Positions 36,901-53,792 of a DNA stretch of 64,000 nt are shown here, in pieces; the stretch's first letter is position 1, and each line of letters opens with the position of its first letter. Below the pieces are notes generated by a model. It searched no databases, was not told the DNA's origin, and saw only the letters and a program-made list of their open reading frames with translations. Source of the stretch: Tridacna crocea. Lineage: Eukaryota; Mollusca; Bivalvia; Cardiida; Cardiidae. Location: the NCBI GenBank assembly GCA_943736015.1, contig OX031062.1, positions 59,756,962-59,820,961 of the forward strand, written 5' to 3'. A program made the translations under genes and the position numbers.

Positions 36901-39900
36901 TTGTGGCAAAAGGTGAAATTGCTCATGACGAGCAATTTCACCTTTTGCCACAATGTTTTCAGAAGGCTCCGACAAGCAATGCGTAGAAATGAGTATCTAT
37001 GGAGTAAAGGGTTAAGTGCATCTCTGATGTATTATAACAATCAAGACATCACGTAATTTGGGATCTATAAAAATAAATGTTGTCTTACAAATGACTGAAT
37101 CATTAGGTAGTCTGGTCCCCTAAGATACAGAAAATTGGTTAAAAGTTTTGGCTCGGGTCAGCCTGCGTGGGTTGATACTTTTCGCAGGTGGATTTGTCCC
37201 CCTTTTTAGAGAGTATGGCTGGTAGATATTAGAACTAAATACTATACTCTTCTCATGGCAGTTTGAACCCATTTCCTGTTACTTGACTGTTAAGCTATAG
37301 GATAACCTGACTCTCCCAGTTACCTCTAAAACATTGTAGAATAACACTAAATTATTAGTACATGTTGTCTAGTTTTTCTTGAAAAATTGTGGTATAAAAT
37401 TTATATAACATTGAATTCGATAAAAATGATTCTAGGAATTTTGGTTTAGTAGAAATGTACATTAATTATGTAGGAACCTCCCTGTGTTTTGAGGAACTAG
37501 GCTTTGAAAATAGTATGGAGAAAGGAGAAAAAGCAGAGCATTTTCTCTTCCTTCTCTAATAGTCCCAAACCTATTCAAAAACATAACCCATCACTTGAGC
37601 CACATATAATTTGTTCTATATAAGGCTAGCACTATCAGAATATTTTTTTAAAAATTTGTTATATCTGATCAACCCTTTACCAAACAATCCCTGGTTTTCA
37701 CTACCCTGACAAAGAAGCCTTTTGAAAATGTTGTGGGAAAAGGAGAAAATGCTAGTTACAAGCATTTTCTCCTTTTCCCAGTTTTTCTACTCTTCGAAAG
37801 TCAAGTTTCAATTTTTGAGTCACATCTATTTTGTTTTCTGCAAATGCTTTCTTTTCTGACAAGTTTGAAATTTTTGTAGCCTGGTAAAGAGTTAAGAATT
37901 ACAGTTTTACCAAACAACAAATTTCTACACCCATTGAACTCAAAAGTAGTTGTTGATAACGAAGTGATTTTGGCTCAAACTACTAATCTTATCCTTACAT
38001 GGGTAGAAAAATTGTTAAAAAAGGAGAAACTGCCGGTTATCAGCATTTTCTCCATCTATCCTAATGGTGTGAACCTTTCAGTCTTTTTCCTCGAGTTGTT
38101 AAAACACAGGATTGTTCGGGAAGAATGAACAGTGGGAAGGTTTGAATGACTCACCAGTGCAATGCTATGATTTTTGCTAATAGACTTACATGACATTTAA
38201 ACTACATGTATAGTGTAGTACATGGCCTTTATTGAACTGAACTACTTTGCTACCTTCCAAAACAAACTTGCAGCCAATAACTTAATTTTTTAAAAACTGT
38301 AATAAAGTAATGATGTTTACATTTTTCTTTTGCAACATTGTTTACAAAAGCAGACACCTTCAGGACAATTAAAGGTTTTTTTTTTTGTGGTAAGGTGCTT
38401 AAATCACATAAGACTTCCATATAGGTAAACACTTGCTTGATGTTTTAATATGCATAGATGTATTACAAAGCTTAATTCAGAAAACTGTATTCTGGTATTC
38501 GAAACCAGATGACACCTGACACTTTACTGGACAGTGTAGGTCAGCATCAGACAGCACAGAACATGCACACAGTGATCTTGTAACAGACTGTATATATAGT
38601 CATTGAGAAAATGCTACTTATTCATTCAGTAGTGAGAGAGTTAACTCTTTACCAAACAACAAAATTTTTAGACATGTCCAAATTGAAAGCTTTTGCAGAT
38701 GTCAAACATGACTCGCAAATCGAAAATTACCTTTAGAAGAGCAGAAAACATTGTGGAGGAAAGGAGAAAATGCTGGTTACCAGCATTTTCTCCTTTTCCC
38801 CCACAATGTTTTCAGAAGGCTTGTCCCTGTGGGCCATAAAATTCAGGGATTGTGTGGTAATGGGTTAATGACCCTCATTTCCTGACTGAAAAGTATATAG
38901 AGATGAAATTGGCCTCGTGACCAAAGATCTTACAGCATATTATTTCCTTGTTAAGTTTGCCTATAACACTACTTAAGAGAGAAGTTTCGTCAATAAGCTT
39001 GATCAGGATCATTAGATACATTTGATTGTTAGATGTTAGATGTTTTATTGTATACATATTTGCTTATGCACAGAAAGCTGAAAATTATGCCTCTGAATTG
39101 TAGATGAATTACCGTGGCAATGTTTTTGTGGTTGCTTAAGCAAGCTTGCATAATGGTGTATTAGTATAATTTATATCGGATGAAATACTCTACCTTAAAG
39201 TATGTTTTTGCTTTGCAAAGCGTACAGGTCAGCTTTCTGTTTTAGGCTCCAGTAACTACAGACATAGGCCACTAGGAATATCTAACATAACTCTTGTAAA
39301 GGAATTTTAGACTTGTAATTTGGATATTTGTGCGCAATTTGAAGTAGACCAATGATTAAATGATGTGTATTATAAAAATTTACGGAATGATAGGGATTGA
39401 ATACTGTAATTATACACAACATTTGGTTGAAATTTCTGTATGTAGATCAACAGATTGAGATCTATATTTTATATACAAAATTTTCCCACCAGATAATACA
39501 CTTTTTTTGAGAAATAATACAAGTACCAGAGTATTACTTTTTACTGGATGGCTTTTTGGCTAATTATACCAGATGTTCATGCATGGTAAAATTAAAAAAA
39601 AATTATTTTTTTTAAACAAAATTACAAGATTATGCATGGCTTTGTAGGCTAACCTATTGATAAGATGAGTAATGTTTTTTTTTGTCCGTTTTTATTTTAC
39701 AGGTACCAATGATTTTAGTAGGGAACAAGTGTGACCTTGAAGATGAAAGGGTTGTAGGCAAGGATCAAGGTCAAAGCCTTGCCAGCCAATGGAATAGCTC
39801 CTTTCTTGAGACCTCAGCTAAAGCAAAGATAAATGTGAATGAGGTATGACTTTGTGTTCACTTTGGCTAGCCCTGTAACTCTTTAACTCTTTACCAAATG

Positions 39901-53792: not shown

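Follow-up and report, generated by a model that had tools for sequence, protein, structure and literature searches.

The KRAS gene gives rise to proteins with two types of membrane anchor, one palmitoyl-type and one polybasic, and KRAS4A is produced by the inclusion of an internal exon that carries a stop codon. In vertebrates, Rap1A and Rap1B are two separate genes, both with basic tails, and the two are not known to arise as alternative exons of one gene. In a description of the KRAS locus, exon 4A sits between exons 3 and 4B (PMC9882654), and the word stem 'mollus' does not occur in its main text. For CDC42, the accessible part of the source describes alternative exons 6 and 7, which give either a tail ending in CCIF or a basic tail with CVLL (PMC9868626). 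A survey of small-GTPase splicing in human, available in part, reports an alternative RAP1A exon in thyroid carcinoma, with the exon not specified (PMC9714508). In the open-access literature, as covered by titles and the beginnings of abstracts and, for the larger topics, in part, no alternative C-terminal exons of Rap1 in a mollusc were recognised. For related clams, predicted models of both forms described below already exist in NCBI.

The window analysed here is the whole stretch of 64,000 nucleotides, which corresponds to bases 59756962-59820961 of contig C7 in an assembly of 1.05 Gb and 31 contigs. Exons were located by a translated search of the window with human Rap1A. This search found every coding part of a single Rap1 gene on the plus strand, between 18861 and 53792, in which four common coding exons are followed by the pair 5a+6a and then by the pair 5b+6b (Table 1). 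The first-pass annotation had proposed one Rap1 gene with two complete alternative C-terminal exon pairs, both joining exon 4 in phase 0 with proper splice sites, and it holds in gene structure, phase and splice sites. Every junction is GT-AG and in phase 0, with AG acceptors at 5a, 6a, 5b and 6b and GT donors at 5a and 5b, and both pairs join exon 4 in phase 0. Form a has 188 amino acids and form b 187, without internal stops, and both frames end in a CAAX box, which is CVML in form a and CVLV in form b. The mixed form 5a+6b is also in frame (184 amino acids), whereas 5b+6a is beyond ordinary linear splicing, since exon 6a is upstream of exon 5b.

Table 1. Coding exons of the Rap1 gene and a candidate donor, in positions of the window.
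Feature	Positions	Strand	Description
Rap1 exon 1, common	18861..18917	+	codons 1-19, start ATG
Rap1 exon 2, common	23104..23172	+	codons 20-42; one DNA match in the assembly
Rap1 exon 3, common	25021..25077	+	codons 43-61
Rap1 exon 4, common	26573..26713	+	codons 62-108; one DNA match in the assembly; donor GAG/GTAAGA (slash at the exon end)
Exon 5a	39703..39843	+	47 codons, from NKCD to SAK, including the helix-4 region; orthologues known
Exon 6a	41339..41440	+	33 codons plus TAG; serine/glycine-rich tail, CCCVML; orthologues known
Candidate donor 11-mer GAGGTATGACT after 6a	41451..41461	+	identical to the 5a splice donor; speculative
Exon 5b	53153..53302	+	50 codons; three residues more than 5a before FLETSAK; orthologues known
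Exon 6b	53703..53792	+	29 codons plus TGA; lysine-rich tail, CVLV; orthologues known

The P-loop and both switches fall in the common exons, and NKCD, SAK, helices 4 and 5 and the tail fall in the cassettes. By its sequence the product is a Rap1 small GTPase, of Rap1 rather than Rap2 type, as tested on orthologues: the Pfam Ras domain scores 195 bits in P0002 and 201 bits in P0122, and the best solved structures for P0122 are Rap1b and Rap1a, at 3e-93 or better, with Rap2A at 5e-69.

Two homologous C-terminal exon pairs lie behind one common 5' part. The DNA searches of the assembly, in which very common words were skipped, were made with exons 2 and 4, and each of the two gave one match in the 1.05 Gb, both at this locus. 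In a protein search of the assembly, high-identity Rap1 exons were found at the window locus only. Elsewhere, the best match, at 64% identity, was a gene of one exon at C13 that was taken to be Rap2. A search of the assembly with 5b+6b gave six matches, namely 5a, 5b and 6b here and three Ras-family genes at 39-50% identity. No third exon pair was found in the assembly search, no exons 1-4 were found in the window between 6a and 5b, and no further convincing copies of Rap1 exons were found in the window or the assembly.

A second Rap1 gene, or a set of exons 1-4 belonging to pair b, was considered and set aside, neither having been found in the assembly searches; the first-pass annotation had named such a separate set as the finding that would speak against it, and in this assembly exons 2 and 4 are single-match. 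A duplication made by the assembly was also rejected, given 14 differences among the 69 bases of the stretch that the copies conserve best, and differences in protein beyond it.

A recount of the opening 23 codons of the two exon-5 copies agrees with the 14 silent bases and unchanged amino acids reported before: 5a and 5b encode the same peptide there, and the 14 differences, all silent, fall in 13 codons. Given that about 24% of random single changes would be silent in this stretch, 14 of 14 silent differences would arise by chance with a probability of about 2e-9, an estimate that assumes simple independence of the changes. The proposed comparison of dN and dS between the pairs gave no usable ratio, since NG86 on the 23-codon stretch returned a dN of 0 and no synonymous distance (-1), and the silent-only estimate was used instead. 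It is clear that both cassettes are under purifying selection. The claim that both pairs are old and selected stands, with the silent-only divergence and the orthologues of each form in other bivalves behind it. Beyond the 23 codons, 5a/6a and 5b/6b differ in protein in the helix 4 region, the loop and the tail, as had been stated for the helix region between NKCD and ETSAK and for the anchor.

The flanks of the pairs were compared by BLASTN of 38700-42500 against 52100-55000, on the plus strand only, which gave 20 pieces, one of them over exon 5. The remaining pieces were taken to be interspersed repeats, and the introns therefore gave no date for the duplication. Exon 6b is identical at 29 of 29 residues in P0253, a piece of another contig in which the translated flanks mostly differ. 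Of its 50 residues, exon 5b has 5 that differ from Mercenaria and 6 that differ from Mya, with one difference between Mercenaria and Mya. In addition, the second residue of the usual INVNE motif is A in 5b; among 252 readable relatives (7 of 259 were unread) it is N in 234, G in 15, and A, S and H in one each. Because of these excess differences and the altered near-fixed residue, form b may be under weaker constraint, or evolving faster, in the G-domain part in this lineage.

Other features of the window were recorded. At 1772-3642 on the plus strand, upstream of Rap1, frames encode a NIT domain (for nitrate/nitrite sensing) as well as a guanylate cyclase domain, and they probably belong to a receptor-type cyclase gene. 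A palindromic 25-mer, GAAAATGCTGGTNACCAGCATTTTC, occurs at 62 places in the 64 kb with at most three mismatches (e.g., 1302-1326 and 40004-40028), for a mean expectation of 0.00. Exact copies number 242497 over the 1.05 Gb, or one every 4.3 kb, and the 25-mer probably forms the core of a short mobile repeat that is very abundant. Searched against Rfam at gathering thresholds, the window gave zero matches.

Relatives of both forms are found in other bivalves, where the isoform names X1 and X2 are database predictions. A search with the whole form-b protein listed 120 relatives out of 7974 matching, and the closest by identity among those listed is the Mercenaria 'Rap-1b isoform X2' (P0002), at 96% over the full length and with the whole head included. 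When only the C-terminal part of form b was used (best 120 of 151 matches), the top matches were P0211, P0002, P0212 from Mya and P0213, at 83-89% along its full extent. None of the other listed matches with full coverage exceeds 73%, and P0253 matches exon 6b only. The C-terminal part of form a (best 120 of 1390 matches) retrieved P0121 and the X1 models of Ruditapes, Mya and Dreissena at 83-89%, all ending in CCCVML. The form-b model of Mya (P0212) has 113 amino acids and its form a is full; Mya X1 and P0212 are both listed on contigs of 64373224 bases. Among the matches listed, only Mya has both forms, and no species besides that of the window has two full-length numbered isoforms. P0121 holds the whole 188-codon frame on a contig of 1311 bases, where the window exons span 22.6 kb, and such a compact frame must therefore come from spliced RNA or from an intronless copy. 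P0211, on a contig of 3668 bases, and P0213, on one of 1191, each have 5b joined to 6b. The source label 'lgn' is one that we take to denote assemblies of public reads.

Some of the models depart from the usual frame. In P0124 and P0125, which are GenBank models of form a from Mya, the frame is left inside the CAAX codons, with CCC followed by other residues, and the window sequence at this break point is the donor-like TGT/GTAATG. These ends may be prediction errors or forms without the lipid box. P0001 (Toxocara canis, 233 amino acids) and P0003 (Cervus elaphus, 232 amino acids) contain the exon-5 segment twice. Within each protein the two repeats have the same amino-acid sequence, and they are therefore read as probable annotation or assembly doubling, though they could be real exon-5 duplications.

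A marker of form b is the length of its loop. The spacing from VGK(D/E)QG to the aromatic residue at the head of FLETSAK or of one of its variants was measurable in 236 of 259 proteins and is 10 residues in 163 relatives, 11 in 69 and 13 in four. The four are exactly P0002, P0211, P0212 and P0213, all of form b, and window form b has the same 13-residue loop, as read by eye. On the sequences compared, this derived length unites the b exons better than the tree does. The tree was built from 29 sequences (30 chosen, minus P0213) with ultrafast bootstrap. With exons 5 and 6 together, form b has a support of 96, and form a plus one further relative 92. With exon 5 alone, form a has 63, and form b is not a clade and falls with another sequence and Potamilus at a support of 21. 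The deeper nodes disagree with known animal relations, form a being grouped with a leech and another sequence (96) and form b with Potamilus and the scallops (60), which is ascribed to short and compositionally skewed tails.

Mya, Dreissena, Ruditapes and Mercenaria are all heterodont bivalves, and the window is placed with them by its protein similarity to named clams. Given that orthologues of both forms occur within the heterodonts, the duplication at least predates the split between Mya and the lineage of the window. The chiton, gastropod, cephalopod and nemertean records examined have basic tails, and for this reason the lysine form is probably older than the cysteine form, as far as these sequences indicate. 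In scallops, a lysine-rich tail ending in GGCVLL (P0096, Mizuhopecten isoform X2) occurs alongside tails ending in GCCVLL (P0130, Ylistrum X1, and P0129, Mizuhopecten, unnumbered), and P0096 and P0129 are both listed on contigs of 854258 bases. Unlike the clam pairs, the two Mizuhopecten proteins are identical over exon 5 and differ only in the last exon. The scallop difference may be the same last-exon choice, with an origin near the base of the bivalves, although the tails are too short for proof. In its broader form, the proposal is that bivalves independently invented a Rap1 switch of the KRAS/CDC42 type early, with the choice of last exon shared with scallops and exon 5 added or kept in the heterodont cassette, and that clustering or partner binding may differ as well through the swap of helix 4 and the three-residue loop. 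This is put forward tentatively, as a possibility that we would not bet on.

The tails of the two forms are as the first-pass annotation described them, with CC next to CVML in form a and a lysine cluster before CVLV in form b, so that the gene carries one cysteine tail adjoining the CAAX box and one polybasic tail. The tail of form a is rich in serine and glycine, with two cysteines before the CAAX box and a net charge of +2 in the last 12 residues before it. That of form b is rich in lysine and has no cysteine before the box. Among 261 proteins, both window forms counted, 236 have readable Rap1 tails, of which 189 lack cysteine ahead of the CAAX box and 47 have at least one. Many of the latter are from nematodes, in a sample that the searches have biased. 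Rap1 tails of the cysteine type are thus present elsewhere, and what is unusual here, as read from the sequence, is that both tails come from one gene.

A Rap1 tail that is regulated by PKA has a serine among basic residues immediately ahead of its CAAX box. The earlier remark that form b has no nearby serine is correct in the window but fails as a general rule, given that serines occur in the form-b tails of Mercenaria (KKSKKKKGGCVLV) and Mya (KRSKNKKGCVLV) and in that of a further relative (KKKSNCLLL). With the tail serine absent in window form b and present in these others, the suggested difference in PKA responsiveness is not supported as a conserved property.

The reading that we prefer, with a probability of about 0.8, is an old tandem copy of the last two Rap1 coding exons that is used as a set of alternative terminal cassettes. 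In this proposal, the last two coding exons would have been duplicated in tandem long ago in a heterodont bivalve Rap1, the only Rap1 found in the assembly. Splicing of exon 4 to 5a+6a would give a weakly charged serine/glycine tail with two cysteines before a geranylgeranyl-type CAAX box (CCCVML), and this form would probably need palmitoylation for staying at the plasma membrane. Skipping from exon 4 to 5b+6b would give a Rap1 anchored by its prenyl group and a lysine cluster. The membrane address would then differ between the forms, as would the face of helix 4 and the loop that follows it. The palmitoylation of form a is suggested by the two cysteines next to the CAAX box and by the examples of CDC42 and KRAS, and by the same examples form b would be held by charge. 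A swap of a prenyl-plus-palmitoyl anchor for a prenyl-plus-polybasic one through the choice of terminal exon is likely on this analogy, and the choice of cassette would be regulated and the localisation different. Because the P-loop and the switch regions are common to both forms, the same effectors and GEFs are expected, and the simplest reading would be that the membrane address changes and the switch partners do not. The longer loop and the changed helix 4 might alter clustering.

Pair b could instead be the remnant of an ancient tandem copy of the gene that lost its exons 1-4, now decaying and no longer spliced in this species. The lack of exons 1-4 between 6a and 5b is compatible with this, as are the greater distance of 5b from Mercenaria and Mya than of those two from each other and its altered near-fixed residue. 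A remnant, however, would have to keep intact frames and splice sites, only silent differences (14 of 14) in the first 23 codons and a 6b that is identical at 29 of 29 residues in P0253 amid translated flanks that mostly differ, and a full-length form b is modelled in Mercenaria, all of which makes this explanation very unlikely. We consider highly improbable the idea that an internal promoter drives pair b and yields a protein cut at its N-terminus, which begins near the Met of VPMILVG and has no switch regions. It is true that P0211, P0212 and P0213 start at or near this Met, as in the Mya model of 113 amino acids, but a frame cut at the start of a contig or at an assembly branch would look alike, Mercenaria isoform X2 has the whole head, and the cut protein would be without the P-loop and both switches.

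The cassettes could also be used in another manner, in which 6a is spliced onward as a stop-bearing cassette, as in KRAS4A, instead of the choice being one of polyadenylation site, and 5b/6b would then become 3' UTR. The candidate donor has its GT starting 14 nt past the 6a stop, the first base of the 11-mer lying 11 nt past the last base of the stop, and GAGGTATGACT occurs on the plus strand of the window only twice, at 39841 (the 5a donor) and at 41451. This is nonetheless a single motif noticed post hoc, and poly(A)-like hexamers follow 6a at 41743 and 41795, though they are frequent in this AT-rich DNA. Onward splicing is therefore seen as an unlikely variant, and the protein outcome is the same with or without it.

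If alternative terminal cassettes are indeed used at this locus, it would be a third, independent case, and anchor swapping within one gene would be something that evolves repeatedly. It would also offer a natural comparison of palmitoyl-type and polybasic Rap1 with the same switch regions, and a warning that studies of adhesion, haemocytes or shell growth should not regard bivalve Rap1 as a single protein.

The likeness to KRAS 4A/4B drawn by the first-pass annotation agrees with everything testable here, and CDC42 parallels the clam gene no less closely. As in KRAS (PMC9882654), one Ras-family gene would have mutually exclusive C-terminal exons, with those of the cysteine form lying upstream. 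KRAS exon 4A is reported to derive from NRAS exon 4, whereas the simplest source in the clam would be a tandem copy of its own exons. CDC42 belongs to the Rho family, and in the available part of its description the differences are placed at the tail and residue 163, not in helix 4; its extra cysteine is inside the CAAX box, whereas form a of the clam has two cysteines before it. Nematode Rap1 resembles form a in having a cysteine triplet after a short serine/basic spacer (e.g., SSKCCCSVM), and among the nematode records listed no alternative form rich in lysine was noticed. With vertebrate Rap1A and Rap1B the clam gene shares the Rap1 G domain. Unlike KRAS, the gene is a bivalve Rap1, and the swapped unit consists of two exons and also changes helix 4 and the loop, which makes it larger than the unit swapped in KRAS or CDC42.
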